Source: Streptomyces violaceusniger (GTDB lineage Bacteria; Actinomycetota; Actinomycetes; Streptomycetales; Streptomycetaceae). From it: DNA of 64,000 nucleotides. Made by a program: the position numbers and the translations under genes. The notes under the pieces are model-generated. The model worked only from the letters and a program-made list of their open reading frames with translations. It was not told the origin of the DNA and ran no database searches. This document shows positions 27,949 through 47,469 of this stretch, piece after piece; the stretch's first letter is position 1; each line of letters starts with the position of its first letter. Where the stretch lies: assembly GCA_005405945.1 (NCBI GenBank), contig BJHW01000001.1:1922001-1986000 (forward strand), written 5' to 3'.

Positions 27949-30368
27949 ATGGCGGATGCGGCCTCGGCGCTGATCGACGCCACGGGGACCATCATCGGCT
28001 GGACCCCGACGGCGGAGCGACTTCTCGGCTATCCGGCGGCGGATGCGATGAAGCAGTCGGCCAGGATGCTGCTGGCGGCGCCGGAGGATGCCGCGAAGGC
28101 CGAGGCGATCGGCTCGTGGTGCCTGCAGCACGACGGCTGGGGCGGTCTGGGCCGGCTCCGGCACCGGGACGGCCGCCGGATCGAGGTGGGGCTGCGGATC
28201 TCCGCCATGCGCGACCCGGACGGCGATGTCTCCTGGCTGGTCTCCGCGATCGACGTGGGCTCCATCCCGACCTGGGCGCTCAGCGGCTCGCTGCTCCAGG
28301 CGTTCCTCACCCGGTCGCCGGTCGGGATCGCCGTGCTCAGCCCGGATCTGCGGTATGTGTGGCTCAACGACACGCTGGAGCGCTACGGCGGGCTGCCTCG
28401 TGAGCAGCGGATCGGCCGCCGGATGGCGGAGTGCCTGCCGGGGCTGGACACCGAGGCGCTCGAGGCGCAGATGCGGCAGGTGCTGAAGACCGGCAAGCCG
28501 GTGATCGACTACGAGTACCGGGGCTGGACGATGGCCGCGCCCCACCGCGAGCACGCGTACTCGACCTCCTTCTTCCGCCTGGACAACGCCGAGGGCAATC
28601 CGGTGGCCGTGTGCTACATGGGCATCGACGTCACCGACCGCTGGCGGGCCCGGGAGCGGCTGGCGCTGCTCAACGAGGCCAGCGAGCAGATCGGCAGCAC
28701 GCTGGACGTCATGCGCACCGCGCAGGAGGTGGCCGACTTCGCGGTGCCCAGGCTCGCCGACTTCGTCACCGTGGATCTGCTGGAGTCCGTCCTGCGCGGC
28801 GAGGAGCCCTCGGCGCGGCCGACCCGGACCATCCCGGCCTTCCGGCGCGCCGGCCAGGCGTCCATCCACGAGGGCTGTCCCGAGTCCATCGCGGCGCGCG
28901 GCGATCCGATCACCATCTCCCCGGCGTCGCCCTTCGCCTGTTGTTTCCTCGAAGGAGAGTCCGTGCTGGATTCGGAGCTGGACGCCTCCTTGCAGGCGTG
29001 GAGCGGCGACGACCCGGCCCGGACGCGGAAGGTGCACGAATTCGGGATGCGCTCCTTGATCGTGGTTCCGATCTGCGCCCGCGGCGCCCTCCTGGGCGTG
29101 GCCTCGTTCGTCCGCTCCCGGCATCCGGACCCGTTCGAGGAGGACGATCTGCTGCTCGCCGAGGAACTGGTCGCGCGGGCCGCGCTGAACATCGACAACG
29201 CCAGCCGCTACAGCCGTGAGCGCGCCACCGCGCTGGCCCTCCAGCGGAGTCTGCTGCCGCACGCGCTGAGCGGCGGCCAGGCCGTCGAGGTGGCCTCGCG
29301 CTATCTGCCCACGGACGCGCGCAACGGGGTCGGCGGCGACTGGTTCGATGTGATCCCGCTGTCCGGTGCCCGGGTGGCGCTGGTGGTCGGCGACGTGGTC
29401 GGGCACGGCATCAACGCCGCGGCCACCATGGGGCGGTTGCGGACGGCCGTGCACACGCTCGCCGACATGGACCTGCCGCCCGAGGAGCTGCTGGCCCACC
29501 TGGACGACCTGGTCATCCGGCTCACCGAGGAGGAGTCCGGGCAGGAGGGCGTGGCGGCCGCGGTGCTGGGCGCCACGTGCCTGTACGCGATCTACGACCC
29601 GGTCACCCGGCGGTGCACCATGGCGCGGGCGGGCCACCCGACGCCCGCGATCGTGGACCCCTCGGGCGAGGTCACCTTCCCCGCGCTGCCCGCCGGTCCC
29701 CCGCTGGGCCTGGGGTCGCTGCCGTTCGAGTCGGCGGAGCTGGAGCTGCCCGCCGGAAGCCTGATCGCCCTCTACACCGACGGGCTCATCGAGACCTGCG
29801 ACCAGGACATCGACGTCGGCCTCGGGCGGCTGAGCAACGCCCTCGGCCAGGCCGTGCTGCCGCTGGAGGAGCTCTGCAGCACGGTCGTCGACACCCTGCT
29901 GACCTCTCCGCAGACCGACGATGTGGCCCTGCTGCTGGCCCGTACCCACGGTCTGGGCACCGGCCACGTCGTCTCCTGGGACCTGCCCTCCGATCCGGCC
30001 GTCGTGGCCAGCGCCCGCTCCCTGGCGATGCGCCAGCTCGCCGAATGGGGTCTGGACGAGCTGATGACCACCACGGAACTGATCGTCAGCGAGCTGGTCA
30101 CCAACGCCATCCGCCACGGCACCGGCCCCATCCGGCTCCGGCTGATCCGGCATGACGTGCTGATCTGCGAGGTCACCGACACCAGCAACACCTCGCCCCG
30201 GCTGCGCCACGCCCGCACCACCGACGAGGGCGGCCGGGGCTGTTCCTCGTCGCCCAGCTGACCCGCCGCTGGGGCACCCGCTACACCGAGGGCGGCAAGC
30301 TCATCTGGGCCGAACAGGACCTTCCGGAACGAGACCTCCCGGAACAAGACCTCCCGGAACCCGCATGA
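27949..30368 (+). CDS. PAS-PAS-GAF-SpoIIE-HATPase sensor phosphatase, paralog 2
   Basis: About 805 aa: PAS (LIDATGTIIGWTPTAERLLGY), second PAS (VLSPDLRYVWLNDTLERYGG), GAF (LNEASEQIGSTLDVMRTAQEV), SpoIIE phosphatase (GVGGDWFDVIPLSG, GDVVGHGINA, LYTDGLIETC), HATPase (SELVTNAIRHGTG). Near 30238-30245 the frame breaks within EGGRG; the other frame supplies LFLVAQLTRRWGTRYTEGGKLIW and ends at 30368. The ATG at 27949 is the first start in frame, yet the codons before it read PTETHVPFD and resemble protein, so a second indel after the ATG at 27899 is possible. The tail has three DLPE-type repeats. Closely related to 15280-17909. Confidence 0.86.
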
Positions 30369-30428
30369 AGCACGCTCCGGCGCACCCCCGCCCTGTTCAT
30401 GATCGGCCGGCTCCCGCACACTGGCCCT

Positions 30429-32044
30429 GTGCCAACAGGAGGGGGCATCCGAGGTGCGGAGGCCGGTCGGCGGCGAGGACCTGTGGGGCGGCGGCTGGCC
30501 TCCCCGTGGTGGCGGGGCGCGATGGCGCTGCTGGCGGGCGCGCTGCCCGCACTGGCCTTTCCCGCGCCCTCGCTGTGGTGGTGGGCGTACGTGGCCCTGG
30601 TGCCCTGGCTGCTGCTGGTGCGGTCGGCGCCCACCGGCCGCCGGGCGATGCGGGACGGCTGGCTGGGTGGCGCCGGGTTCCTGCTCGCGGCGCACCACTG
30701 GCTGATGCCGAGCCTGCATGTGTTCATCGTGCTCCTGGGGCTGCTGCTGGGGCTGTTGTGGGTGCCCTGGGGTGGCTGACGCACCGACTGCTGCACGGCC
30801 GCCCGGGTCCCGGGCGGGTGGCGGCGGCGCTGGTGCTGCTGCCGTCCGTCTGGCTGATGGCCGAGCTGGCCCGGTCCTGGCAGTATCTCGGCGGGCCCTG
30901 GGGGCTGCTGGGCGCGAGCCAGTGGCAGGTGGCGCCCGCGCTGCGGCTGGCCTCGGTGGGCGGGGTCTGGCTGCTCGGCTTTCTGCTGGTCCTGGTGAAT
31001 GTGGCGGTGACCGTGCTGATCTCGGTGGCCCGGGCCCGTACGGTGGCGCTGGCCGGGCTCACCGCGTGCGCCGCCGCGGCGGCCGGGGCGTGGGCCTGGG
31101 TGCCGCAGGCCAAGGAGCCCGGAACGACACGGATCGCGGTGGTGCAGCCGGGAGTCATCCAGGGGCCGGGGCCGCGCTTCGAGCGCAGCGCGCAGCTGAC
31201 CCGGCAGCTGGCCGGCCGCGATGTCGACCTGGTGGTGTGGGGCGAGAGCAGCGTCGCCCAGGATCTGACCACCCATCCGGAGCTGGGCCGGCGGCTGGCC
31301 GCGCTGTCCCGGACGGTCGGGGCGGATCTGCTGGTCAACGTGGACGCGCGGCGCGGCGATATGCCCGGCATCTACAAGAGCTCGGTGCTGATCGGGCCGA
31401 ACGGCCCGACGGGGCAGCGCTACGACAAGATGCGGCTGGTCCCCTTCGGGGAGTACATCCCGGCCCGGCCGCTGCTGGGCTGGGCCACCTCGGTGGGCAA
31501 GGCGGCCGGTGAGGACCGCCATCGCGGCACCGAGCCGGTGGTGATGAACCTCCCCGGTTCCCTGCGGATCGGGCCGCTGGTGTGCTTCGAGTCGGCGTTC
31601 CCGGACATGAGCCGGAACCTGGCGCGGGACGGGGCGCGGGTGCTCGTCGTCCAGTCCTCGACCTCGACCTTCCAGCGGAGCTGGGCGCCCGAGCAGCACG
31701 CCTCGCTGGCCGCGCTGCGGGCCGCCGAGACCTGGCGGCCGGTGGTGCATGCCACGCTGACCGGGGAGAGCGCGGTGTTCGGGCCGCGCGGCGAGCCGGT
31801 GGGGCCCCGGATGTCCACCGGCACCAGCGCGGCCACCGTCTACACGGTGCCGCTGGGGCAGGGCACCAGCCCGTATGTGCGGATCGGGCCCTGGCCGGTG
31901 TACGGGGCGATGGCGGCGCTCGCCGTCTTCTGCGCCGTCGAGGGGGGCCGGGCGCTCAGACGGCGGACGGACCGGCCGTTGGACCGGCGGCCGGGGCGAC
32001 CGGCAGACCAGCGGACGGACCAGCCGACTCCAGGGCGTCCCTGA
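30429..32044 (+). CDS. lnt: Apolipoprotein N-acyltransferase, frameshifted
   Basis: About 538 aa. It transfers the third acyl chain to the N-terminal Cys of lipoproteins at the membrane. An N-terminal membrane domain (LAGALPALAFPAPSLWWWAY, FLLAAHHWLMPSLH) precedes a nitrilase domain. The catalytic triad is visible: Glu in VVWGESSV, Lys in DKMRLVPFGEYIP, Cys in PLVCFESAFPD. The frame breaks at 30768-30775 (CCCTGGGGTGGC); the next frame resumes with WLTHRLL. GTG at 30429 is the chosen start; earlier in-frame sequence is unlikely to code. The end overlaps the convergent oxidoreductase by about 90 bp. Confidence 0.88.
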
Positions 32045-32921: not shown

Positions 32922-34141
32922 GTGTTCTCCCCGGTCTCTTCCGCTCACGCCTTCCGCTGTGCCCCGCAGGATACGTGGGGTGGGCGGAGACCAGTCGGCG
33001 ATGCCGTCGAAGGAGCGGAGGGCCAGACCGGGGGCGAGGCGGCCGACGGCGGCGATCGCGGCGTCGCGGAGGGCGACGGCGGGGGCGCTGGTGAGGGTGA
33101 TCATGCGGGCGGTGCGCGCCGAGCGGCGTACCACGTCCATGGTGCGGGGCAGCCGGTCGCGGGTGTAGGCGGCCAGCGCGTCGGAGGGGTCGGCGGTCTC
33201 GGGGGCCAGATGGTGGGCGAGGACGACGGCGTCCTCGATGGCCTGGTTGCCGCCCTGCCCCATCGTGGGGCCATGGCGTGGGCGGCGTCGCCGAGGAGGG
33301 CGGCCCGGCCCCGGTGGTAGGCGGGCAGCGGCTCGGCCATGTACCGGATGTCATGGCGCAGCACGTCCCTGGGCGCGACGGCGGCGAGGACGTCGGGGAC
33401 GGGGCTGTGCCAGTCGCCGTAGAGCCGCAGCAGTTCGGACCGCTCGTCGTCCGGGGCCCGGCCGCCGGGCGGGGCGACGGCCGCCGCGTAGGCGTAGACC
33501 CGGCCGTCCCTCAGCGGCTGGGTGCCCCAGATCCGGCCCCTCCCCCAGGTCTCGTGCGGCTCGAACGGCCGGTCGGGGGCGGGGATGACGACACGCCAGG
33601 TGGTGAATCCGGCGTAGCGGGGCCCGGGATGGTCCGGGAAGAGCGCGCGGCGGGCGGCCGAGTCGATGCCGTCGGCGCCGATGACGAGTTCGGCCTCGTG
33701 GTCGCCGTCCTCGGTGGTGACCCGGGCCGGGCGGCCGGCGGCGCCGGGGTCGGCCAGCCGGGCGGCGGTCCCGGTGCGGACCACGCCCTGGGGCAGCCGG
33801 GAGACGAGCAGGTCGACGAGGGTGGCCCGGTGGAGGAGGACCAGCGGGCCGCCGAAGCGCTCGGCCGTCGTGGCGCTGTCCATCCGGGACAGCCAGCGGC
33901 CGCCGGGGGTGCGCAGTCCGCCGCCGCCCTGCCAGGCGGCGAGCGCGCGCACGTCGTCGCCGAGGTCGATGGCGTCCAGGGCGCGCTGGGAGTTGGGGGC
34001 GAGCGAGATTCCGGCGCCGACGGGTTCCAGGCGGGCGGCCCGCTCCAGGACGGTGATGGACCAGCCGCGGCGGTGCAGGGCCGCGGCGGCGGTGAGCCCG
34101 CCGACTCCGGCACCGATGACGAGGGCACGGGGCTGCCGCAT
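32922..34141 (-). CDS. FAD-dependent aromatic-type monooxygenase, frameshifted
   Basis: Class A flavin hydroxylase. N-terminal VIGAGVGGLTAAAALHRRGW binds ADP; LVIGADGIDSAARR is the DG motif; GDAAHAM closes the flavin site. The frame shifts near 33265-33275, after which MGQGGNQAIEDAVVLAHHL and the C-terminal helices continue. After the shift the frame runs without a stop into the Gfo/Idh gene at 32921, so the true end is unclear. The expected C-terminus is near IADWSPP at about 32985. ATG 34141 has GGAGGA upstream. It is divergent from a TetR gene and probably controlled by it. Substrate unknown. Confidence 0.82.
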
Positions 34142-35507: not shown

Positions 35508-36182
35508 GCGCTCCACGGGAAGTGCCGCGAGGTGCGGTCGTTCATCCGCGGCTTCGTCGTGGCCGATCGCGCCCCGCGGCGGAGCCGCATATCGACACAG
35601 CCGCGGCGGAGCCGCATATCGACACAGCCCCGCGCCCCTTCGGGGCGCCTCCGACCGGCTTCCGTCGATCTGCTCGGCGGCGTTGTGCCAGACGGGGCCA
35701 CGCCCACCGCGACGACGGTGCGCCGAGGGACGCGGGGAATGACCATCGGAGCCCTCCTTGGGGGCGGCGCGCCGCCGAGAACCAGCCATCGCGAGGCAGC
35801 TCAGGGCATGCGGTCCGGATGCGAACAGAAACTATCCGAGCACGTACGAACTCTCGGCGCAAGACTTCGCATCAGCCGCAATCATCTTTCGTTCATCTTC
35901 GTGAAGCCGGGAAAGTTGGCCGGCGCCTGGGGAAAATACGAGGTCAGCAGGTGTGATCCATCCACCGGGCCCACTCCGACAGGCGGACTGATCACAAAAA
36001 AGTTCGGCCGTACCCCTTGCCAGACCCAGATCGTACGCGTTCGGATTAATTGCGTCGGCGGCACCCGTGAGACCCGCGTCTCCCCATGAAGCCACCCGGC
36101 CGCATGGCTGGATCTCTACCTCTACGCCCGCCCGGACCGTGCGATCGCCGTCTGCCACCTCCCCCTTCCCCAGGAGCGAGAC
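35508..36182. other. 675-bp non-coding spacer upstream of the nic operon
   Basis: No convincing gene. It contains a 27-bp direct repeat in two copies (35574-35627), a terminator-like hairpin (35632-35648), a GC-rich stretch with palindromes up to about 35790, then an AT-richer stretch at 35865-36070, unusual for this DNA, which probably holds the nic promoter and MarR operators. Candidate -35 TTGCCA is at about 36018, followed by GGATTAAT, but the spacing is not ideal. Confidence 0.55.
35574..35648. terminator. Tandem 27-bp repeat and hairpin, likely terminator
   Basis: Two identical 27-bp copies (35574-35600, 35601-35627), each holding a small GCGGC-GGA-GCCGC stem-loop, are followed by GCGCCCC-TTC-GGGGCGC (35632-35648), a perfect 7-bp stem. 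It lies downstream of the DinB gene and before the nic promoter region, so it should end transcription from the tetR/DinB side. Confidence 0.55.
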
Positions 36183-37214
36183 ATGCTCGACCTCACCTCC
36201 GTTGACCTGCTCGACGCGTTCACCCAGGAGCTGAAGCTGTGCAAGCTCAAGCCCGATGAGCACGTCGTCGTCCTGTCCGAGCCCACCAGCCGCGGCGACT
36301 ACGTGGCGGCCGCCTTCGGCGCGGCCAAGGCCTGCGGCGCGCACGTCATCGCCGCCACCGTCCCCGGCGGCAACCCGTCGCCCTCGGACAGCACCCGCAC
36401 CGGTGCCGGACCCGGCCTGAGCGCGGTGCTCGGCGACACCGCCGCGCAGGACCTGCTCAAGGCCGCCGACCTCGTCGTGGACCTCACGCGGGAGGGCTTC
36501 ATCCACGCCCCGCTCCAGCAGGAGATCCTGCGGACGGGCACCCGCATCCTCTTCGTGTGCGACGCCCCCGACGTGCTCGTCCGCAATCTGCCCAGGCCGG
36601 AGGACAAGGCGGAGGTGCTCAAGGGCGTCAACCTGCTGAAGAGCGCGTCCGTCATGCGGGTGACCTCCGAGGCCGGCACCGACCTGACCATCGAACTGCC
36701 CGGCTCCAAGCCGGAGTTCCAGGTGGGCTTCGCCGACGACCCGGGCCGCTGGGACCACTGGCCGAGCACCATGGTCCTGTGCTGGCCGCGGTTCTCCGAG
36801 GGCCGGATCGTGCTCTCCGAGGGCGACATCCTGCTGCCGTTCAAGGAGTACGTACGTCAGCCGGTCACGCTGCAGATCGCGGGCGGGAACATCGAGAAGG
36901 TGTCCGGTGGCGCCGAGGCCCACCTGCTGAACACCTTCTTCGACGACGCGGACGACGAGTGGGGACGCAGCCTGTCCCATATGGGCTGGGGCCTGATGCG
37001 CACCGCCGACTGGTTCGCCACCGCCCTGTACGGCAAGGAAGAGCTGATGGGCATGGACGCGCGGGCGTTCGCCGGAAACTTCCTGTGGTCCACCGGACCC
37101 CACCCCGTACTGCGGCGTGAGTCGTACGCACACGTCGACATCGCCATGCGCGGCTGCACGGTCTCCGTCGACGGCCAGGACGTCGTCACCGCGGGCCGAC
37201 TCGTCGACTACTGA
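36183..37214 (+). CDS. nicX: 2,5-dihydroxypyridine 5,6-dioxygenase
   Basis: 343 aa. It opens the 2,5-dihydroxypyridine ring to N-formylmaleamate using Fe(II) and oxygen. The fold belongs to the NicX/M29-like group. The expected iron ligands are in place: His266 in SLSHMGWG, and His317-x-Asp319 in SYAHVDIAMRG, almost the same positions as in the Pseudomonas putida enzyme. ATG 36183 follows AGGAG. First gene of the nicotinate operon, 31 bp before nicC. Confidence 0.9.
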   Translation: MLDLTSVDLLDAFTQELKLCKLKPDEHVVVLSEPTSRGDYVAAAFGAAKACGAHVIAATVPGGNPSPSDSTRTGAGPGLSAVLGDTAAQDLLKAADLVVDLTREGFIHAPLQQEILRTGTRILFVCDAPDVLVRNLPRPEDKAEVLKGVNLLKSASVMRVTSEAGTDLTIELPGSKPEFQVGFADDPGRWDHWPSTMVLCWPRFSEGRIVLSEGDILLPFKEYVRQPVTLQIAGGNIEKVSGGAEAHLLNTFFDDADDEWGRSLSHMGWGLMRTADWFATALYGKEELMGMDARAFAGNFLWSTGPHPVLRRESYAHVDIAMRGCTVSVDGQDVVTAGRLVDY

Positions 37215-37245
37215 TCCCGCCGCCGCACCCGCATCTGGAGAGAAG

Positions 37246-38517
37246 ATGGCATCCACCCAATCCCTCGACGTCGTCATCGTCGGCGGCGGGCTCGGCGGAA
37301 TGACCGCCGCGCTGTCGCTGCGGCAGCGCGGCCATCAGGTGACCGTACTGGAGCAGGCACCGCGGTTCGGCGAGATCGGCGCGGGCATCCAGACAGCGCC
37401 CAACGCCAGCCGGGTCCTGCTCGGGCTGGGGCTGCGCAGGCAACTGGAGGCCATCCGCACCGAGCCCCAGGACCAGGTGCGGCGCCGGTGGAAGGACGGG
37501 AGCGTCATCGGGCTGACCCAGCTCGGTGACTACTGCAAGCAGCGGTACAACGCGCCGTACTGGCACTACCACCGGGCCGATCTGCACGGTGTCCTCACCG
37601 ATGCCTGTGTCGACCCGACCGGCCCCGGCCCGGTGGTCGCGCTGCACACCTCGAGCCGGGTCGGCGAACTGGACCGTGGCGACCCCCGCCGCCCCGCGGC
37701 CGTGACCGAGGACGGCCGCCGCTTCGAGGCCGATGTGCTGATCGGCGCCGACGGCATCCGTTCCCGGGTCCGCGACCTCATGGGCCTCCCGGACACCCTG
37801 CTGTTCTCCGGCGAGATGGCCTTCCGGGCCCTCATCCCCGGCGACCTCATCGCCGCCGACCCGGCCACGCGCTTCTTGATGGACCGCTTCCAGAGCACCA
37901 TCTGGTACGGCCCCGATCGGCACCTGGTCCACTACATGATCCGCGGCGGCGAGTACCTCAACGTCGTCGGCTGCGTCCCGTGCGCGGACGAGGTCGCCGA
38001 GCGGTGGACCGGCTCGGCCACCGCGGAAGACCTGGTGAACGCCTACGAGGGCTGGGACGATCGCGTGGCGGCGATGCTGTCCAAGGCCAAGGACGACGTG
38101 CTCTGCTTCGCCCTCTACCACCGCCGACGCGACCCGGTCTGGATGGACGGCCGCATAGCCCTCCTGGGCGACGCCTGCCACGCCATGCTGCCCTACCAGG
38201 CCCAGGGCGCCTCCCAGGCCATGGAGGACGCCGCCGTACTGGCCGAAGAACTGGGCCGTATCAACGCCGACGGCGTCGAGGGCGCGCTGCGACGCTACGT
38301 GGACCGGCGAGCCAAGCACGCCGGCATGGTCCAGGACGCCTCGCTGCAGAACAAGACCTTCTACCACTATCCCGACGGCCCGCAGCAGGAGGCCAGGGAC
38401 GCCCTGCTGCGGCGCGGCTTCGACGGCGAATCCGACGTCTCCTACCACTGGTTGTGGAGCGGCAGCCCGCTCGACGACCCGGACCTGGGCGCCTTCGACT
38501 ACCGCTTCGCCCGCTGA
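37246..38517 (+). CDS. nicC: 6-hydroxynicotinate 3-monooxygenase
   Basis: 423 aa, FAD-dependent. It hydroxylates and decarboxylates 6-hydroxynicotinate to 2,5-dihydroxypyridine with NADH and oxygen. VIVGGGLGGMTAALSLRQRGH binds ADP; GEIGAGIQTAPNASRVL, LIGADGIRSRVR and GDACHAMLPYQAQGASQAMEDA are the other flavin signatures. NicC is chosen over salicylate hydroxylase because of its place between nicX and the transporter. ATG 37246 has GGAGAG upstream. Confidence 0.87.
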   Translation: MASTQSLDVVIVGGGLGGMTAALSLRQRGHQVTVLEQAPRFGEIGAGIQTAPNASRVLLGLGLRRQLEAIRTEPQDQVRRRWKDGSVIGLTQLGDYCKQRYNAPYWHYHRADLHGVLTDACVDPTGPGPVVALHTSSRVGELDRGDPRRPAAVTEDGRRFEADVLIGADGIRSRVRDLMGLPDTLLFSGEMAFRALIPGDLIAADPATRFLMDRFQSTIWYGPDRHLVHYMIRGGEYLNVVGCVPCADEVAERWTGSATAEDLVNAYEGWDDRVAAMLSKAKDDVLCFALYHRRRDPVWMDGRIALLGDACHAMLPYQAQGASQAMEDAAVLAEELGRINADGVEGALRRYVDRRAKHAGMVQDASLQNKTFYHYPDGPQQEARDALLRRGFDGESDVSYHWLWSGSPLDDPDLGAFDYRFAR

Positions 38518-38635
38518 CCAGCCCTTCCCCATCCCCCTCCCCGCTCTTCACTCGCCCCCTTCGGGGCCACTTCCCGCTCATCCACCTCGGTGTCGCCCCA
38601 CGCGGGCACATCCCCGAACACCCCGTGGAGCGACA

Positions 38636-40038
38636 GTGAAAACAGGCGACCAGATCGTCCAGGACCTCCCATGGAGATGGGGGTCCAGGGCCGGATCTTC
38701 ATCATCGGCGGCCTCGGCTACCTCTTCGACGCCTATGACATCGCCCTCAACGGCTTCCTGATGCCGCTGCTGGGCGACCACTTCCACCTCTCCCTCTCCC
38801 AGCGAGGTCTGGTGGCCACCGCCAATCTGGTCGGCATGGCCGTGGGCGCGGTGGCCTGGGGCGCGATCGCCGACCGCATCGGACGCAAGAAGGCTTTCAG
38901 CGTCACCCTGCTGATCTTCGCGCTGTTCTCGGTGGCCGGTGCCCTGGCCCCGAACTACGGAATCTTCCTCGCCCTGCGCTTCATCGCGGGGGTCGGACTG
39001 GGCGGCTGTATTCCCGTCGACTACGCCCTGGTGGCGGAGTTCTCCCCGACGAAGTACCGCGGCCGCGTACTGACCGCGCTGGACGCCTGGTGGCCGATCG
39101 GCGTGACCCTGTGCGGTCTGGTCTCGACGGCCATGCTGTCCCTCGACGGCAACTGGCGGTGGATGCTCTGCGTGATGAGCGTTCCGGCGCTGCTGCTGTT
39201 CTGGGTGCGCAGGGGTGTGCCGGAGTCGCCGGTCTACCTCAGCAGGAAGGGCAGGGAGGCCGAGGCGCGGGCCGTCATCGACGATCTGGTCGCCCGCACC
39301 GGCGCTCCCGTCGAGCCGTACGTCATTCCCGCCCCGGTGCGCGAGGCCGCCGGGAACGGCCCCCGCGCCGCGCTCGAACAGCTGCGTGCGGTCTGGAAGT
39401 TCAGCCCGCGCATCACCTCCGCCGCCTGGCTGCTCTTCGCCACCGTCATGCTGGTGTACTACGCGGCGCTGAGCTGGCTGCCGTCCATCCTCAAGGAGGA
39501 GGGCCTCGGCGACACGGCCGCCTTCATGAGCACCACGCTGATGAGCGCGGTCGGCATCGTCGGCGTCCTGACCTCCACGGTGCTGGTGGACGCGGTCGGC
39601 CGGAAGTGGCTCATCGGGGTCTCGGCCCCGGTCGCCTCGCTCGCACTGGTGGTGTTCGCGCTGGTGATGCGCATGCCGACGGGTTCCATCGTGGCCATCG
39701 CCGGCTTCGGCTTCCTGATGCAGCTGACCATCCCCGCCATGTACGCCTACGTCTCCGAGCTGTACCCGACAACGCTGCGGGCCAGCGGCTTCGGCTGGGC
39801 GTCCTCGTTCAGCCGGGCGCTCACCGGCTTCGCCCCGATGCTGTTCGGCTCGGTGATGTGGCCGCTGCTGGGATTGCCGCTGACGTTCGGGGTACTGGCC
39901 GTGGCCGTCCTGGGGGCCGTCGTCTGGACGGCGTACGCGGCGCCCGAGACGAAGGGACGCGACCTCGACGAGGACGACCCGGCCGCGGTGCCCGCCCCCG
40001 CGTCCCCGGAGCCGGCCGTCGGTCAGCCGGTGCGCTGA
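38636..40038 (+). CDS. MFS transporter, NicT-like nicotinate uptake, N-terminal frameshift
   Basis: About 467 aa, twelve membrane segments, aromatic-acid/H+ symporter family: GGLGYLFDAYDIALNGFLMPL, WGAIADRIGRKKAFS, PVDYALVAEFSPTKYRGR, SELYPTTLRASGFGW. GTG 38636, behind GGAG, starts VKTGDQIVQDLPWRWG, the normal family N-terminus; the rest (VQGRIFIIGG) is one frame away. Adding one G to the five-G run at 38679-38683 restores it. By position it should import nicotinate or 6-hydroxynicotinate. Confidence 0.85.
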
Positions 40039-40117
40039 AGGGCGGCCCGCCCGGCCGGACTGCCCCCACCCCGACCGGACGCGGCCCGGGTCGGCCTTCG
40101 AAAACGACAGGAGAAAC

Positions 40118-40965
40118 ATGAAGCCCGCTCCCTTCCAGTACCACCGGGCGCGCGACGTCGAGGGCGCCACGGCACTCCTGGCCGAACTGTCCGACGAGGC
40201 CAAGGTCATCGCCGGCGGCCAGAGTCTGGTGGCGATGATGAACTTCCGGCTGGCCCGGCCGGCGCACCTGGTCGACATCGCCGGTCTGCGCGAACTCGAC
40301 CATCTCGGCGTCGAGTCCGACGGCGGGCTGCGCATCGGGGCGCTCACCACCCATCACACGGTGGAGACCGCGCCCGCGGACCGGCTCGGGGCGGGTTTCG
40401 CGGTCATCCGCGATGCCATGCGGTGGATCGGCCATCTGCCGATCCGGACCCGCGGCACCGTGGGCGGCAGCATCGCGCACGCCGACTCGACCGCCGAGTG
40501 GTGCCTGCTGGCCGTGCTGCTCGACGCCGAGTTCGTGGCCCAGAGCCCGCGCGGGCGGCGTCGCCTCCCGGCCGGTGAGTTCTTCTTCGGTTACTACACC
40601 ACCGCCCTGGAGCCCGACGAGATCCTCCTGGAGATCGTCTTCCCCGCCCCGCGCCGCACGCGGCGCTCACCGAGTTCGCCGAGCGTCGCGGAGACTTCGC
40701 CATCGTCTCCGCCGCGGTCGATCTGGCAACCGACGGCGAGGACATCCGCGGCGGCCGGGTGGCTCTGGGCGGTGTCGCCGCGATGCCGGTGCGTGTGCCC
40801 GAGGCGGAGGCCGTGCTGGCGGCCGGCGGCTCGTTCCGGGACTGCGCGGAGGCGGCTGCCTCCGCCGTGGACCCGCCGAGTGACACAGGCGGAAGCGGCG
40901 ACTACCGCAAGCACCTCATCCGCACTCTGATCGAGCGAGCCTGTGAGGAGGCGATGTCACGATGA
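40118..40965 (+). CDS. Nicotinate dehydrogenase FAD subunit (CoxM type), frameshifted
   Basis: About 283 aa, medium subunit of a xanthine-oxidase-family enzyme. FAD motifs: VIAGGQSLVAMMNFRL and TRGTVGGSIAHADSTAEW. The C-terminal part in the next frame (LTEFAERRGDFAIVSAAVDL, GDYRKHLIRTLIERACEEA) matches CoxM/CutM ends. The shift is at about 40650-40665 (CCCCGCGCCGC). Pseudomonas NicAB has no FAD subunit, so electron flow here differs: Mo to 2Fe-2S to FAD. The ATG follows CAGGAGAA; the stop overlaps the Mo subunit start (ATGA). Confidence 0.86.
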
Positions 40966-43333
40966 CGCCCGCCAAGGACGACCGGCTGGTCGGCAGGTCG
41001 GTGGCGCGCCGCGAGGATCCCCGGCTGCTGTCCGGACGTGGCCGTTTCGTCGACGACATCGAGCTGCCCGGGATGCTGCACGCGCAGTTCGTCCGCAGCA
41101 CGGTCGCTCACGGGACGATCACCGGGATCGATCTGACCCGGGTGCGTCAGGTCCCGGGTGTCGTCGCCGCGTTCACCGCCGCCGACCTGGAGCTGGGCGA
41201 CATCACCGCCCGGCTCGCCCGCCCGCTCTCGGAGTTCGTGCCGACCGCCATGCCCGTCCTCGCCCGCGACCGGGTCCGCTACGTCGGCGAGCCCGTCGCC
41301 GTGGTCATCGCCCGCGACCCCTACCTCGCCGAGGACGGCCTGGAGGCCGCCAAGGTGACGTACGCACCCCTGCCGCCCATCACCTGCGAGGAACAGGCCC
41401 TCGCCCCCGGCGCCCCGCGGGTGCATGCGGAGGCCGCCGGGAACACCCTGGTCGACGTCGGCCTGTTCGCCACCGAGGGCATCGACGAGATTTTCGACCG
41501 GGCTCCCTGCGTTGTCCATGTCGATGTGCGAACCGGTCGGCAGAACGCACTGCCGCTGGAGACGCGTGGCGCGGTGGCGCAGTGGGACGCCCGGGAGGAG
41601 CAGCTCGTCCTGCACACCTGCACCCAGACCCCGCATCAGGTGCGGACCGTGGCCTCCCGCTGCCTGCGACTGGACGAGCGCGCGGTGCGAGTGATCGTCC
41701 CGGACATGGGTGGCGGCTTCGGCCTCAAGTGCGTGGTCGGGCGCGAGGAGATCGCCACCGCGGCGGCCGCGCTGCGGCTCGGCCGGCCCGTCAAGTGGAT
41801 CGAGGACCGCAAGGACGCCCTGTCCGCCTCGTTCCTCGCCCGGGAACAGCACTACACCGCACGCGCCGCCTTCGACACCGACGGCCGGATCCTCGGCCTC
41901 GACGCGGACGTGGTGTGCGACATGGGTGCCTACTCCTGCTATCCGTTCACCGCCGGTATCGAGCCGCTGATGGCCTCCGCAGAGATGCCCGGCGTCTACA
42001 AGGTCCCCGCCTACCGGGTGCGCGGCCGGGCGATCACCACCAACAAGGCGCCCACCGCCCCCTACCGGGGCGTGAGCCGCCCGAGTTACGTGATGGCCAT
42101 GGAGCGGCTCATGGAGCGCGCCGCCCGCGAACTGCGCCTGGCCCCGGTGGAGATCCGGCGCCGCAACGTCATCACCGACTTCCCGTACACCGGCGTCAAC
42201 AACATCACCTACGACCCCGGCTCGTATCTGGAATCCCTCGACCTGTGCGAGCGGGCCGTGCGCGAGGCGGGCTGGTACGACCGGCAGGCCGAGGCCACGG
42301 CCGAGGGCCGGCACATCGGCATCGGATACAGCTGCTTCAGCGAGCGCACCGGCTACGGCTCCGCCGCCTTCGCCCAGCGCAAGATGGAGGTCGTGCCGGG
42401 GTTCGACCTCGCCGAGGTCCGCATGGACACCAGCGGCGCGGTCACCGTCACCACCGGCACCGTCAGCCACGGACAGAGCCATGAGACGACCATGGCGCAG
42501 ATCGTCGCCGATACGCTCGCCCTCGACCTCGCCAAGGTCAAGCTCCACCAGGGCGACACCGATCGCATCACCTACGGCTGGGGGACCTTCGCCAGCCGCT
42601 CGATCGCGGTCGGCGGCAGTGCCGTACGTCTGGCGGCGGGCAAGCTCGGCGACAAACTCCGCGCCATCGCCGCCGCCGAGTGGGGCATCCCCCGGAGGAC
42701 ACCGAACTGGACCGGGGCCGGGTCCGTCGGCGCGACGACCCGGATGTCGCACTCACCTACGAGCACCTGGCCGGCACCGCCTACCTCACATCCCATCTGC
42801 TGCCCAAGGACATCGAGCCGGGCCTCACCGCCACCGCCGTCTTCGACGTCCACAACGACGGCACCTTCTCCAATGCCACCCACGGGGTGGTGGTGGAGCT
42901 GCACGAGGGCACCGGGCAGGTGGAAGTCCTCGCCTACTTCTGCGTCGAGGACTGCGGTGTCGCCGTCAATCCGCAGGTGGTGGAGGGGCAGTGCCGGGGC
43001 GGCATCGCACAGGGCATCTCGGGGGCGCTCTTCGAGCAGATCACCTACGACGCCCAGGGCGAGCCGTCGGCCACCAGCTTCATGGACTACAAGGTGCCCA
43101 CCGCACAGGAGATCCCGGAGGTGGTGATCCACCACCTGGAGACCCCGTGCGCCTTCACCGCGACGGGAGCCAAAGGCGCCGGCGAGGGCGGCACCATCGG
43201 GGCCCCCGCCGCCGTGCTCAACGCCGTCAACGACGCACTGCGGCCCACCGGCGTCGAACTGGACCACACGCCCATCACACCGGAGACGGTCCACCGTGCC
43301 CTGACCCCCCGCACACCGGAGCAGACACCATGA
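40962..43333 (+). CDS. Nicotinate dehydrogenase molybdenum subunit (CoxL type), frameshifted
   Basis: About 790 aa, large subunit that binds the molybdopterin cofactor and hydroxylates the pyridine ring at C6 with water oxygen. SVARREDPRLLSGRGRFVDD starts the Ald_Xan_dh_C fold. MGGGFGLKCVVGREE, TAPYRGVSRPSYVMAMERLM and the C-terminal GAKGAGEGGTIGAPAAVLNAV (catalytic Glu) are family marks. The CO-dehydrogenase Cys loop (AYRCSFR) is absent, so it is not CODH. The shift is at about 42688-42696 (CATCCCCCGG). Assignment to nicotinate rests on the operon. Both ends overlap neighbours by ATGA. Confidence 0.86.
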
Positions 43334-43869
43334 ACGACACCACCGGCCTGGGCGACGACGTCCAGCTCATCACGCTCGACGTCAACGGCTCGCCCTACGA
43401 GGTGATCACGGCGCCGCGCCGCACCCTGGTGGACGTGCTCCGCCACGATCTGCGGCTGACCGGCACCCACGTCGGCTGCGAGCACGGGATCTGCGGCGCC
43501 TGCACCGTGCTCGTCGACGGGCTGCCGGTCCGGGCCTGTCTGATGTTCGCCGCCCAGGCGGAGGGCGCGCGGATCACCACCGTCGAATCCCTCGCCGACT
43601 CCCGCACCGGCGAGCTCAGCGATCTCCAGCGGGCCTTCACCGCCCACCACGGCCTCCAGTGCGGCTTCTGCACCCCCGGCTTCCTGATGCTGGCCCAGGG
43701 CTTCCTCGCGGAGCGGCCGGAGGCGGCCAAGGAGGAGATCCGGGAGGTCGTCGCCGCGAACCTGTGCCGGTGCACCGGCTACCAGACCATCGTCGAGGCG
43801 ATCGACGCCTGCGCGACCGCCCGGCGCTCTCAGCGGCCCGTGGGCGCCGAGGAGGACTCATGCGACTGA
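43330..43869 (+). CDS. Nicotinate dehydrogenase 2Fe-2S subunit (CoxS type)
   Basis: 179 aa. Plant-type ferredoxin cluster ligands are Cys50, Cys55, Cys58 and Cys70 (CEHGICGACTVLVDG). The second cluster uses Cys111, Cys114, Cys146 and Cys148 (QCGFCTPG, NLCRCTGYQ). Both are standard for small subunits of xanthine-dehydrogenase-type hydroxylases. It overlaps the Mo subunit by 4 bp and coxG by 10 bp. Confidence 0.93.
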   Translation: MNDTTGLGDDVQLITLDVNGSPYEVITAPRRTLVDVLRHDLRLTGTHVGCEHGICGACTVLVDGLPVRACLMFAAQAEGARITTVESLADSRTGELSDLQRAFTAHHGLQCGFCTPGFLMLAQGFLAERPEAAKEEIREVVAANLCRCTGYQTIVEAIDACATARRSQRPVGAEEDSCD

Positions 43870-44485
43870 TCCATACCGTTTCCGTCGAAGCCGCGCCCGA
43901 CGCGGTGTTCGCCCTGCTCAGCGACGTCCCAACAGTGGCGTCCTGTATGCCCGGCGCCGCTCTCGAAGGCCGTGACGGCGATGCCTGGCGCGGCGCGGTC
44001 ACGATCAAGGTCGGCCCGATCTCGGCCGCCTACGCCGGCACCGTGCGCTTCCTGGAGGTAGACGCCGAGAAGCGGAGGCTGCGTGTCCACGCCAGCGGCG
44101 CCGACACCCACGGCAGCGGCGACGCCGAGGCCGAGGTTTCCCTGGAGGTCGTCCCGGATCAGGACGGTGCCCAGCTCAACCTCTCCACCGACCTGGTGAT
44201 CCGGGGCAAGATCGCCCAGTTCGGCAAGGGAGCCATCGGGGCCGTATCCGACAAGATTCTCCAGCAGTTCGCCCAGAACCTCGGCAACCTCCTCCGGCAG
44301 GGCGGCGTGGAAGCCTCCCCGCCTCCGGCGCGGCGCCCGCCGCGTCCACCCCCGCGGCCGGGGCACCCGGTGAGCTCGACGCAATGGTGCTGATCGCGGG
44401 CCCGCTGCTGAAGAAGTACGGCCCGGTCGCGGCCGCGTTCCTGCTCGGGTTCGTTCCGGGCTGGCTGCTGGGGAGGCGCCGATGA
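43860..44485 (+). CDS. coxG: CoxG family protein with C-terminal membrane anchor, frameshifted
   Basis: About 208 aa. SRPBCC/CoxG domain: RLIHTVSVEAAPDAVFALLSDV, CMPGAALEG, GTVRFLEVDAEKRRLRVHA, GKIAQFGKGAIGAVSDKI. After a Pro/Ala linker, the alternate frame gives LLKKYGPVAAAFLLGFVPGW and ends GRRR, a single membrane helix. The shift is at 44320-44340 in a Pro/Ala-rich, GC-only stretch. In Mo-CO dehydrogenases CoxG ties the enzyme to the membrane and the quinone pool; the same role for the nicotinate enzyme is inferred. The stop overlaps nicF (ATGA). Confidence 0.83.
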
Positions 44486-45187
44486 GCGGCGGACTGTACG
44501 GCGTCGCCACCCACCACACCTACCAGCGGGCCGGCTTCGGTGCCGCGGTGCGGCGCGGCAGCCGTCCGGCGATCGTCGTGGTGGACCTGACCCGGGGTTT
44601 CACCGAGGAGTCGTACCCTTCCGGTGCCGACCTCTCCGAGGTCGTGGCCGCCACCGCGCGCCTGATCGAGGCGGCCCGGCCGGTGGATGTGCCGGTGATC
44701 TTCACCGCGATCGCGTACACCGAGGCCGAGGCGTCCGGTGACGCGGTCCCCTGGCTGCGCAAGGCTCCCGGCCTGCGCACCTTGGTCGAGGGCAGTGACG
44801 CCGTGGCCATCGACCCACGGCTGCCCATGCGGCCGGGACACGATCCGCTGGTGGTGAAGAAGGGCGCCTCGGCCTTCTTCGGCACGAGTCTCGCCGCCAC
44901 CCTGACCGGTCTGGGCCGCGACACCGTGGTGGTGTGCGGCGCCACCACGAGCGGCTGTGTGCGGGCCACCGTGGTCGACGCCGTCCAGTCGGGCTTCCCG
45001 GTGCTGGTGCCCCGTGCCTGCGTGGGCGACCGGGCCGAGGGGCCGGCGGACGCGGCGCTCTTCGACATCCAGGCCAAGTACGGCGACGTCGTCACCTTCG
45101 AGGACGCCGTCGGCTACATCGGCTCCGTTCCCGCCCCGGCGGCTCCTGACGCGGCCGGGCGTTCCCCCGACGAGGAGACAGCACATG
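44482..45187 (+). CDS. nicF: Maleamate amidohydrolase (isochorismatase family)
   Basis: Converts maleamate to maleate and ammonia. Cysteine hydrolase fold with the triad Asp35 (VVVDLTRGF), Lys127 (VVKKGASAF) and Cys159 (CGATTSGCVRATVVDA). SAFFGTSL and the cis-peptide region GATTSG are present. The domain ends near Asp-Ala-Val-Gly-Tyr-Ile at about 45120. The frame has no stop there: it stays open through nicD to 46035, so an indel between 45120 and 45190 is likely. The end given here is therefore approximate; nicD starts at 45185. ATG 44482 overlaps the coxG stop. Confidence 0.83.
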
Positions 45188-46035
45188 ACACGGCGTTCGG
45201 TCCTGCAGAGCGCGCTCGCCGATCTGGCCGAGGTGCCGGCCACGAGCCGGTGGGTGCGCTCCGGGGACGTACGGCTGCACGCCCTGGACTACGGCGGCGG
45301 TCTGCCGGCGCTGGTCGTCCTGCCCGGTATCACCAGCCCCGCGGTCACCATGGACTTCGTGGCACGCGAACTGACCGACCTGGTCAGGCCGGTGGTGCTG
45401 GACGTACGCGGCCGGGGTCTTTCGGACGAGGGCGAGGGCTACGGGCTGGAGGAGTACGCCGAGGACACCGAAGCCCTCATCACCCACCTCGGCCTCGACC
45501 GTCCGCTGCTCCTCGGTCACTCCATGGGCGCGCGGATCGCGGCGGCCGTCGCGGTGCGTGCCAAGGTGCCCCTGCGCGGCACCGTGCTGGCCGATCCGCC
45601 GATGAGCGGCCCGGACCGCGGGCCCTACCCCACCCCCGGGAGGTGTTCCTGCGGCAGCTTTCCGAGGCCCGGCGCGGAACGGACGCCGACGAGGTGGCCG
45701 CCTCGTGGCCCACCTGGCCGCGGCGGGAACAGGAGCTGCGGGCCCGCTGGCTGTCCAGCTGCGCCGAGGAGGCCATCGTGGCCACGCACCACGGCTTCGA
45801 GCACGAGGACTTCTTCGACTGGTGGCCCCGGGTGCCCGGACCGGCCCACCTGCTCTACGGAGCCGACAGTCCCGTCGTGACGGCGGAAGGGGCGCGGGAG
45901 GCCGCCGGGAGCAATCCACCGGCGCCGCTGCACCGGATCCCCGGCGCCGGTCACATGATCTTCTGGGACGCCCCGGCCATCGCCACCGCGACGCTCCGCG
46001 ACGCGCTGCGGACCATCCTCGCCCCGGCCGCCTGA
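45185..46035 (+). CDS. nicD: N-formylmaleamate deformylase (alpha/beta hydrolase), frameshifted
   Basis: About 283 aa. Hydrolyses N-formylmaleamate to maleamate and formate. Alpha/beta hydrolase: ALVVLPGITSPAVTMDF, DVRGRGLSDEG, nucleophile Ser113 in GHSMGARIAAAV, and the final GAGHMIFWDAP with the catalytic His. The frame shifts at about 45638-45648 (CCCACCCCCGGGAGG); the rest is in the frame shared with the open nicF reading frame. ATG 45185 follows GAGGAGA. Confidence 0.84.
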
Positions 46036-46071
46036 CCGGTGTCCGCTGCCCCGTTTCGGAGGACCGACCCC

Positions 46072-46908
46072 ATGGCAGACCATCACATCGGGCTGATCGT
46101 GCCCAGCTCCAACCTGACGATGGAGACCGAGCTTCCCCGGATGCTCAACGCGCGGGAGTCCATCGCGCCGGGCGACCGCTTCGTCTTCCACACCAGCCGG
46201 ATGCGGATGAAGCACGTCACCCCGGACCAGCTGCGCACCATGAACGCGCAGACCGAGCGGGCCGCCCTCGAACTGGCCGACGCGCGGCCCGACGTCGTCG
46301 CCACCGCCTGCCTGGTCGCCATCATGGCGCAGGGGCCGGGTCACCACTGTGTGGCGGAGGCCGACATCAGCTCCGCGCTGCGGGCCGAGGGCTCCCGGGC
46401 TCCCGTGGTCTCCAGCGCGGGCGCCCTGCTCAGCGGCGTCGAGGTGGTCGGCGCCCGCCGGGTCGCGATCATCACGCCGTATATGAAGGAGCTCACCGCC
46501 AAGGTGGTCGACTACATCGAGGACGCCGGGATCGAGGTGGTCGACGCGCTCAGCCTCGAGGTTCCGGACAACCTGGCGGTGGCCCGTCTGGACCCCGCCG
46601 ATCTGCGTGAACACTGGCGCCGCCTGAACCTGGGCAGGGCCGACGCGCTGGTGCTGTCGGCCTGCGTGCAGATGCCGTCGCTGGCGTCGATCCAGCCCGT
46701 CGAGGACGAGGCGGGGCTGCCCGTACTGTCGGCGGCCACCTCCACCGCGTTCCGCATCCTGACGGAGCTCGGGCTGCCGCCCGTCGTGCCCGGCGCCGGG
46801 AGCCTGCTCGGCGGCCAGGTCTCCCGCACTGCCGGGAGCGGCGCCGGAACGACGGCCGGTCGGAGCTCCGGCGGTACGGGACCGGTCCACCTCGGTACCG
46901 GTCGGTGA
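46072..46908 (+). CDS. nicE: Maleate cis-trans isomerase
   Basis: 278 aa, Asp/Glu racemase superfamily. Converts maleate to fumarate, which enters the TCA cycle. The two active-site cysteines are Cys80 (ATACLVAIMAQG) and Cys198 (LSACVQMPS), positions identical to those known for maleate isomerase. The start MADHHIGLIVPSSNLTMETE is typical, with GGAGG 10 bp upstream of ATG 46072. The last 30 residues are a Gly/Ser/Thr-rich tail outside the family norm. Confidence 0.9.
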   Translation: MADHHIGLIVPSSNLTMETELPRMLNARESIAPGDRFVFHTSRMRMKHVTPDQLRTMNAQTERAALELADARPDVVATACLVAIMAQGPGHHCVAEADISSALRAEGSRAPVVSSAGALLSGVEVVGARRVAIITPYMKELTAKVVDYIEDAGIEVVDALSLEVPDNLAVARLDPADLREHWRRLNLGRADALVLSACVQMPSLASIQPVEDEAGLPVLSAATSTAFRILTELGLPPVVPGAGSLLGGQVSRTAGSGAGTTAGRSSGGTGPVHLGTGR

Positions 46909-46989
46909 GCCCGCGGCCGGGGCCGGAGGGTGCGCCGGCGCCCGCCCCGCTGTCCTCCGGCGTCAACCGTGCGTGCTTAAGTAGGTTCC

Positions 46990-47469
46990 ATGACTGATCC
47001 CACCCCGTCCGCCCCAACTGGGCCGGAGGCTCCCACTGCCCTGACGGCCGCGCCCGGCTATCAGGTCCGCCGTCTCTACCAGGCGTATCTCGCCGTGTGG
47101 GCACGGGAGGTGGACCCGGTCCTCACCGGCCCCCAGTTCGCGGTGCTGCAGACAGTGGAGGCCCATCCCGGCCAGGATCAGCGTTCCATGGCCGCCGCCG
47201 TCGCCCTGGACACCTCCACCATGGCCGATGTGGCTCGCCGGCTGGAGAACCGTGGTCTGCTCGCCCGGCGAACCGCGGCCGCCGACGGCCGTCGCAAACT
47301 GCTCTACCTGACCGACGCGGGCCAAGAGGCCCTTCGGGAGGCGAACCACCGGGCGCGCAGGCTCGACACGATCCTCCTGGACTCCTTCGACGAGGCGGAA
47401 CGCGAACGGTTCGTCGTCAACCTGAAGGCGCTCGCCGACCGCTGGGAGGAGCTGGCGGAGGCGGCATAG
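46990..47469 (+). CDS. MarR family regulator, probable nic operon repressor
   Basis: 159 aa. Winged helix: YLAVWAREVDPVLTGPQFAVLQTV, RSMAAAVALDTSTMADVARRLENRGLLARR, ADGRRKLLYLTDAGQEAL. In Pseudomonas the MarR protein NicR represses the nic genes and responds to 6-hydroxynicotinate; position at the end of this operon suggests the same. The 81-bp gap before it contains CTTAAGTA close to the ATG, possibly a -10 box of its own promoter with little or no leader. Confidence 0.82.
   Translation: MTDPTPSAPTGPEAPTALTAAPGYQVRRLYQAYLAVWAREVDPVLTGPQFAVLQTVEAHPGQDQRSMAAAVALDTSTMADVARRLENRGLLARRTAAADGRRKLLYLTDAGQEALREANHRARRLDTILLDSFDEAERERFVVNLKALADRWEELAEAA

Follow-up and report, generated by a model that had tools for sequence, protein, structure and literature searches.

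The question raised by this locus is whether Streptomyces violaceusniger carries a working operon for nicotinate catabolism, and which enzymes would open the pathway. The DNA analyzed, hereafter the window, is a stretch of 64,000 nucleotides from assembly GCA_005405945.1 (contig BJHW01000001.1, positions 1,922,001-1,986,000 of the forward strand); its G+C content is 73%, and the genome comprises 11.7 Mb in three contigs. The operon at 36183-47469 lies entirely on the + strand and contains nicX, a flavin monooxygenase gene, an MFS transporter gene, genes for the flavin (FAD), molybdenum (Mo), and iron-sulfur (FeS) subunits of a hydroxylase, a CoxG-like gene, nicF, nicD, nicE, and marR (Table 1). 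Our results suggest that the nicotinate operon is real, occurs widely, and probably functions, and that its two opening enzymes are unlike those of Pseudomonas.

We consider it fairly likely that the operon is controlled by its MarR protein and serves growth on nicotinate (vitamin B3). We infer nicotinate as the substrate; position, architecture, and family are the basis for tentatively assigning the two upper reactions, the compound imported, and the ligand of MarR. The MFS permease would import the aromatic acid, and the three-subunit Mo/FeS/FAD hydroxylase would place a water-derived oxygen next to the ring nitrogen, converting nicotinate to 6-hydroxynicotinate. The flavin monooxygenase would then exchange the carboxyl for a hydroxyl group, yielding 2,5-dihydroxypyridine, which NicX would open to N-formylmaleamate. 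NicD would remove formate from this product, NicF would remove ammonia, and NicE would convert maleate to fumarate. The first two enzymes would have been recruited separately.

An earlier note, made from this DNA alone, had proposed a complete nicotinate operon. Its gene order, single strand, and gene families were confirmed by profile and PDB matches and by the translations; the CoxG-like gene at 43860-44393 was missing from its list. NicX aligned with the 2,5-dihydroxypyridine dioxygenase NicX (7cn3) over residues 5-341 (E 5e-72), and gave no Pfam or NCBIfam match at E 0.001. NicF matched an isochorismatase-family hydrolase (4l07, E 8.5e-60), and NicE matched a maleate isomerase (4fq7, E 2.9e-74). 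All the active-site residues quoted in the earlier note were present at their positions, namely His266, His317, and Asp319 of NicX, which align with the same letters in 7cn3, the triad Asp35, Lys127, and Cys159 of NicF, and both catalytic cysteines of NicE (Cys80 and Cys198). The deformylase 4l0c matched only residues 376-497 of the open reading frame (ORF) that reads NicF (E 1.4e-10). An intact alpha/beta hydrolase frame for NicD was lacking in the window, with a break near 45634-45637, and was present in S. iranensis (locus L062). We take 4l07, 4fq7, and 4l0c to come from a nicotine-degrading Pseudomonas. The homology supports the predicted identities of the lower enzymes.

A search with NicX returned 77 named loci, mostly from Streptomyces, to which the nearest named loci by NicX also belong; the others were from Yinghuangia, Sphaerisporangium, Janibacter, Rhodococcus/Rhodococcoides, Nocardia, Gordonia, Mycobacterium/Mycolicibacterium, Amycolatopsis, Nonomuraea, and a Modestobacter bin. 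Sixty-five of the 77 reach at least 8 kb downstream of NicX, and the 12 shorter ones were set aside. The monooxygenase and the FAD, Mo, and FeS subunits were found together in 57 of these 65 loci (a FeS homologue being present in 57/57 by definition of the set). All 57 were collinear in the order NicX-monooxygenase-FAD-Mo-FeS-CoxG, with the CoxG-like gene in every one, and they came from seven genera (Streptomyces, Yinghuangia, Sphaerisporangium, Janibacter, Rhodococcus/Rhodococcoides, Nocardia, and Gordonia). The MFS gene was found in 51 of them, NicF with NicD in 45, MarR in 40, and NicE in 36, some stretches ending before the last genes. With the block collinear in 57 of 65 NicX loci, its conservation is far beyond chance. 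Among 392 sampled Streptomyces genomes, the Mo gene was detected at E 1e-200 in 22, all of them among the 23 with a NicX of at least 78% identity; the exception was G130, which has such a NicX and no Mo gene at that threshold. Any NicX match, weak ones included, was obtained in 34 of the sampled genomes.

Some modules of the operon vary between genera. Eleven hydroxylase loci (Rhodococcus/Rhodococcoides, Nocardia, and Gordonia) lack NicF and NicD and also gave no NicE match; in every one of them, two nitrilase-type amidases lie upstream of nicX. The amidase queries were taken from L114, itself one of the 11. These amidases likely replace NicF and NicD functionally. In L114 (7259-10023), the nitrilase-superfamily amidases are separated by a flavin reductase. 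The eight loci without the hydroxylase among the 65 were L080, L124, L125, L126, L130, L131, L137, and L138. A variant in which lower nic genes and the monooxygenase accompany a Rieske oxygenase, with no Mo hydroxylase at that place, lies at L080:8075-9998 and L079:4471-5700, and ferredoxin and reductase genes are found nearby in L080. Among named solved proteins, the L080 oxygenase matched dicamba O-demethylase DdmC best (3.8e-36); one may speculate that a Rieske demethylase yielding 6-hydroxynicotinate would bypass the Mo step.

Two plasmids carry more distant NicX relatives. In Peribacillus frigoritolerans (L189), a 37% identical relative stands with two NicF-like genes and with maleate-isomerase-like, NicD-like, and 4-hydroxyphenylacetate-3-hydroxylase-like genes, and no Mo hydroxylase is annotated in that stretch. 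In Rhodococcus pyridinivorans from a quinoline-degrading reactor (L147), a 42% identical relative lies amid Mo-hydroxylase, molybdenum-cofactor, and Rieske dioxygenase genes.

To characterize the hydroxylase, we examined its domains, active site, and phylogeny. Matches to PF02738, PF20256, PF01315, and PF00941 placed it in the xanthine-oxidase family of Mo hydroxylases; PF00941 matched the FAD subunit at E 4.5e-44 over residues 5-177 only. The translated FeS subunit has two Cys motifs for two [2Fe-2S] clusters. The enzyme has three separate subunits, as the earlier note had claimed in setting it apart from NicAB, with FAD and Mo recognized by Pfam and FeS by its Cys motifs. The 11 operon rows of the Mo alignment all keep the active-site Glu, within a GAGEGG or GVGEGG motif. 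These rows represent 11 of the 57 hydroxylase loci, with S. iranensis standing in for the broken Mo gene of the window; the own-genome paralogue L153 was dropped as too short an ORF, and L155-L159 were not used. The operon Mo subunits formed a clade of their own (11 rows, support 100/100), and the nearest rows outside it were 50-53% identical. Seven loci (6.7-20 kb) encoding the next closest Mo subunits, at 45-53% identity, showed no NicX beside them; one had a weak NicF-family match. These loci therefore do not reveal the substrate.

The intact Mo subunit of S. iranensis matched QorL of quinoline 2-oxidoreductase best (1t3q, E 2.2e-165, 40% identity), followed by carbon monoxide (CO) dehydrogenases (1.1e-137 and lower), 6-hydroxypseudooxynicotine dehydrogenase (9e-114), and, far weaker, the L chain of Eubacterium barkeri nicotinate dehydrogenase (1.6e-38). 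The check proposed in the earlier note, clustering with enzymes for another N-heterocycle, gave a mixed picture: the best solved match is a quinoline enzyme, but of low identity, and the tree, built without SpmA, PicA, and the Bacillus enzyme, keeps the operon clade separate. The earlier note called the enzyme CoxLMS-like; its Mo subunit is QorL-like. An aerobic CO dehydrogenase was rejected: the AYxCSFR loop of CoxL is absent, and all 11 operon rows, like the translated Mo gene of the window, have PYRGVSRP instead. NicAB was rejected as well, its known form being a FeS subunit with one large Mo-cytochrome subunit. An E. barkeri-type split of the Mo domain into NdhL and NdhM does not apply either; the relatives have one chain of approximately 790 amino acids, and the divided Mo gene of the window results from a frame break. 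The same architecture occurs in an alphaproteobacterium: plasmid ABSP7_p3 of Azospirillum brasilense (L146, L148) carries a FAD/Mo/FeS/CoxG set with an amidase and a MarR gene approximately 18 kb from a nicX/D/E/F cluster, with 43% identity in the Mo subunit.

The monooxygenase had been labeled nicC. Its PDB matches were vanillate 1-hydroxylase (8x38, 2.5e-76), 4-hydroxybenzoate 1-hydroxylase (8gsm, 4.8e-71), and NicC (5eow, 1.5e-52), with identities of 40.5% to 8x38, 36.3% to 8gsm, and 31% to the enzyme of Pseudomonas sp. BYT-5. In a tree of 23 rows (the window and 15 of the 77 loci as 16 operon-type rows, and seven references), the operon-type rows formed a clade (100/99) and the two NicC rows a separate pair (100/100); the branches of Azospirillum, tropone monooxygenase, MNX1, and L126 are long, and the joining of NicC with Azospirillum is possibly false. 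Eleven NicC positions were compared. Positions 225, 262, and 302 were included for their roles in NicC. The other eight were taken from a passage of PMC9304392. Positions 211, 215, and 227 are kept in the window, among them the substrate-binding His211 and Tyr215, and position 262 agrees with BYT-5 only, the two NicC rows differing there. At position 47 the window has Gln, as does the 8uiq chain, whereas the BYT-5 row and the published NicC have His. The residue at 202 varies with the alignment used: Ser in the computed alignments, Thr by eye.

Because NicC forms a branch of its own and its active site is for the most part not conserved here, the monooxygenase was rejected as an orthologue of NicC, and the label was not kept. 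Of the eight published sites, Aspergillus HxnX agrees with the window at Gln47, His211, Val213, Tyr215, and Val227 and differs at 202, 228, and 229; according to the passage of PMC9304392, deletion of HxnX blocks 6-hydroxynicotinate use. Since HxnX has Gln47, His47 is not essential for the 6-hydroxynicotinate reaction. The 4-hydroxybenzoate enzyme MNX1 is no worse a match to HxnX than the window monooxygenase is; because MNX1 shares the pattern, the active site allows the reaction without proving the substrate. The monooxygenase is a non-orthologous NicC relative and a candidate 6-hydroxynicotinate monooxygenase. Recruitment from the 4-hydroxybenzoate side is chemically plausible by analogy, 6-hydroxynicotinate being the ring-nitrogen analogue of 4-hydroxybenzoate. 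In three Mycobacterium/Mycolicibacterium NicX loci (L124, L125, and L126), a 46-51% identical monooxygenase occurs with no Mo hydroxylase in the available stretch, and an ABC-transporter ATPase gene is next in L124. No relatives of the monooxygenase were found in viral contigs.

Nicotinate catabolism, as first proposed, is still the best reading of the operon, qualified by five disturbed frames or frame ends and by first two enzymes that are not orthologous to those of Pseudomonas. The hydroxylase travels with the lower genes, the best solved matches of the monooxygenase are carboxyl-replacing hydroxylases, the transporter is similar to aromatic-acid permeases, and MarR is similar to PcaV. The Mo, FAD, and FeS subunits of S. 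iranensis have masses of 85.1, 29.8, and 19.1 kDa, near the 85, 34, and 20 kDa that a passage of PMC10331938 gives for the three subunits of Bacillus nicotinate dehydrogenase. Several observations weigh against this reading. No assay of any operon gene or close relative was found. Three of the enzymes are broken as sequenced, and the error signature discussed below is not genome-wide. The best solved match of the Mo subunit, a quinoline enzyme, reaches only 40% identity, and the E. barkeri match is much weaker. The monooxygenase is unlike both NicC rows at positions 202, 213, 225, 228, 229, and 302; His211 and Tyr215 are common to all 23 alignment rows, and MNX1 likewise has Gln47, Val213, and Val227. 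Finally, two Streptomyces loci, L079 (S. hirsutus) and L080, have the lower genes beside the Rieske oxygenase with no hydroxylase there, and the lower genes are therefore not tied to nicotinate.

Some of this evidence would also fit an operon that degrades another substituted pyridine carboxylate, such as a hydroxypicolinate or an alkylated nicotinate, feeding into 2,5-dihydroxypyridine. The first two enzymes are non-orthologous to NicAB and NicC, the quinoline enzyme is the best solved Mo match, the active-site positions of the monooxygenase are as close to the 4-hydroxybenzoate enzyme as to any 6-hydroxynicotinate enzyme, and L079 and L080 pair the lower genes with a Rieske oxygenase. We regard this alternative as unlikely. 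Picolinate would need a separate decarboxylase, PicC, which we take to be an amidohydrolase, and no match to it was found among the nine operon ORFs scanned; 5-hydroxypicolinate would not need a Mo hydroxylase. The combination of a Mo hydroxylase and a carboxyl-replacing monooxygenase suits nicotinate directly.

The proposal of a complete operon did not hold for the window as sequenced, in which the FAD, Mo, and NicD frames are broken and the N-terminus of the MFS protein and the tail of NicF are shifted. Alignment with five relatives revealed single-base gaps present only in the window near 38682-38683, 40645, 42688-42693, 45166-45167, and 45634-45637, all within genes, and a further one near 40050 in an intergenic region. 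A programmed frameshift was ruled out, the gaps being unique to the window. The Mo gene is split over two frames that correspond to residues 1-578 and 575-790 of a relative. In S. iranensis, the FAD, Mo, NicF, NicD, and MFS genes are all open frames, and the Mo gene is one stretch in all 21 other Streptomyces genomes that have it, without a stop in 20. The Mo gene at G368:C10:91199-93541 has a single in-frame TGA.

These breaks could be real mutations in an operon that is decaying in this strain, as the absence of the FAD, Mo, and NicD frameshifts from five relatives would allow. We compared the window with two relatives, G096 and G372 (the latter is probably the same genome as S. iranensis L062 and not independent of it), over its first 0.8 kb and approximately 15.1-53.3 kb, with interruptions. 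There were 26 one- or two-base differences common against both relatives: 19 single-base deletions in the window, four single-base insertions, and three two-base events. On manual inspection, 16 of these 19 deletions make a C or G homopolymer shorter; the one at 44314 recurs in three other relatives. Single-base deletions elsewhere in the window include those at 323, 15623, 24401, 27910, 30235-30768, 32961-33266, and 51790, and other gene calls at such sites are an Lnt-like gene, a GFO/IDH/MocA-like gene, and a short-chain dehydrogenase/reductase gene.

Shifted frames were counted in each direction, uncovered genes being dropped (23/48 and 13/42 from the relatives to the window, 7/42 and 15/48 between the relatives, and 1/35 for rpoB); some shifted genes are artefacts of start choice, such as nicX with an upstream start, so that each count, whichever the comparison, is a maximum. 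Of the genes covered in the window, 10 of 25 from G096 and 13 of 29 from G372 were shifted, against 3/35 (G372 in G096) and 4/33 (G096 in G372) between the relatives. The reverse comparison, window to G096, gave 7/22 covered genes (21/43 dropped). C or G runs of at least six bases numbered 11 in the window, whereas 64 kb of matching G096 sequence had 21 and 58 kb from G372 had 14; inside the operon there was one, versus three to six in the five relatives. In the rpoB region, shifts affected only 4 of the 34 genes covered (3/33 for G000 to G096), and long runs were not depleted (9 versus 7 in G096), which fits decay. The genome is 97.02% complete, whereas most of the genomes listed reach 99-100%. 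Because the relatives lack the breaks and similar breaks occur elsewhere in the window, read error, uneven over the genome, appears likelier than decay, which we consider improbable. The frame breaks being most likely sequencing errors, the living strain probably has a working operon. Claims of a complete operon made from raw sequence need checking for frame breaks, as the window illustrates.

The least probable alternative is a nicotine-type branch, in which an SpmABC-like 3-succinoylpyridine hydroxylase would be followed by an HspB-like monooxygenase releasing succinate semialdehyde: according to a passage of PMC6122326, SpmABC is likewise of the xanthine-dehydrogenase family and feeds the same lower pathway, but HspB (7da9) matched the monooxygenase at only 1.6e-7, far behind NicC and vanillate 1-hydroxylase, and no aldehyde dehydrogenase was found among the nine operon ORFs, in a comparison made without SpmA itself.

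The features of the nicotinate operon are listed in Table 1. The MFS protein matched TIGR00895 at E 1.5e-70 with 238.1 bits, under the cut-off of 418.55. MarR matched PcaV (4fht, 2e-22), HosA (8aga, 4.4e-17), and 6pcp (1.1e-9), the last of which we take to be BpsR. BpsR is a 6-hydroxynicotinate sensor according to a passage of PMC6837509. The position of marR varies: it follows nicE in the window and in four Streptomyces hydroxylase loci (L062, L063, L067, and L129) and lies between nicD and nicE in 24 of the 57. In four Janibacter loci, nicE is upstream on the other strand. A block upstream of nicX that contains CGGATTAATTGCG showed few changes in 6 of 10 aligned regions, mostly from the closest relatives; its role as an operator is a guess. 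No common operator emerged from exact dyads (5-7 bases per arm), which were common to at most 4 of 46 upstream regions (at most 2 in shuffles).

Table 1. Features of the nicotinate operon in the window; the ends of the FAD-subunit gene and of nicF were set from a relative's gene.
Feature	Position	Strand	Basis and remarks
Candidate operator/promoter element upstream of nicX, CGGATTAATTGCG inside a conserved block	36042..36054		Upstream alignments; strand not assigned
nicX, 2,5-dihydroxypyridine 5,6-dioxygenase	36183..37214	+	PDB NicX 7cn3, E 5e-72
FAD-dependent decarboxylative monooxygenase, candidate functional NicC	37246..38517 (ATG at 37246)	+	PDB matches, tree, site table
MFS transporter, aromatic-acid/H+ symporter kind	38590..40038	+	TIGR00895; N-terminal frame disturbed by deletion near 38682-38683
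FAD subunit of Mo hydroxylase, CoxM-like	40118..40965	+	PF00941; frame broken near 40645
Mo (molybdopterin) subunit, QorL-like	40962..43333	+	Relative's match in two frames; broken near 42688-42693
[2Fe-2S] subunit, CoxS-like, 179 aa	43330..43869	+	Two Cys motifs in translation
CoxG-like SRPBCC protein, probable hydroxylase helper	43860..44393	+	PF06240, E 6.2e-17
nicF, maleamate amidohydrolase	44482..45188	+	PDB 4l07; last residues shifted by deletion near 45166-45167
nicD, N-formylmaleamate deformylase	45185..46035	+	PDB 4l0c, partial match; frame broken near 45634-45637
nicE, maleate cis-trans isomerase	46072..46908	+	PDB 4fq7, E 2.9e-74
MarR-family regulator, nearest PcaV	46990..47469	+	PDB PcaV 4fht, E 2e-22

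The chances seem evenly balanced that actinobacteria rebuilt the upper nicotinate pathway independently, with a further class of Mo nicotinate hydroxylase, a second, non-orthologous lineage of 6-hydroxynicotinate monooxygenase, and modules swapped between genera. In that event, a QorL-like hydroxylase with CoxG and a monooxygenase from the vanillate/4-hydroxybenzoate 1-hydroxylase side would have been joined to conserved lower genes; the swapped modules would be the two nitrilase-type amidases for NicF and NicD (Rhodococcus, Nocardia, and Gordonia) and the Rieske oxygenase for the Mo hydroxylase (two Streptomyces). Among the matches listed, no paper on an actinobacterial nicotinate operon of this kind was recognized by its title or the start of its abstract, a weak negative with subscription literature mostly outside its scope. 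If correct, the nicotinate assignment would give the hydroxylase classes a further testable case, or else extend the Bacillus class by a relative, encoded in a defined operon that many sequenced strains share, and the Mo hydroxylase would be a candidate for 6-hydroxynicotinate production. Homology transfer from Pseudomonas would then misname or miss the actinobacterial enzymes of vitamin B3 breakdown, because Pfam and NCBIfam do not name NicX and the first two enzymes are non-orthologous to their Pseudomonas counterparts.

Among known systems, the nic cluster of Pseudomonas (NicAB, NicC, NicX, NicD, NicF, and NicE) has the same lower pathway, MarR, and MFS, as seen in the plasmid cluster of Pseudomonas sp. 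BYT-5. The BYT-5 cluster has a FeS gene and one 3.6 kb Mo gene, whereas the operon described here has FAD, Mo, and FeS subunits and CoxG. The monooxygenases 8x38 and 8gsm share Gln47, Asn225, and Tyr302 (NicC numbering) with the window enzyme, the operon context of which is pyridine ring cleavage. HxnX, compared by its published sites, is fungal and belongs to another downstream pathway. QorL shares the YRGV loop and the active-site Glu with the operon Mo subunit, but its substrate, quinoline, is bicyclic and lacks a carboxylate. NdhFSLM of E. barkeri belongs to the same enzyme family; a passage of PMC5746545 describes its Mo part as divided over two chains, with a Se ligand. The nicotinate dehydrogenase of Bacillus niacini (DSM 2923) also combines Mo, flavin, and FeS subunits of similar masses. 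According to a passage of PMC9304392, the Bacillus ring opening starts from 2,3,6-trihydroxypyridine, unlike the 2,5-dihydroxypyridine route of the operon. A three-subunit nicotinate dehydrogenase as such is thus already known from Bacillus; the contrast drawn by the earlier note with Pseudomonas alone is right in that the enzyme differs from NicAB, but it overstated the novelty. At least three classes of bacterial nicotinate hydroxylase are argued, in a passage of PMC5746545, to have arisen independently.

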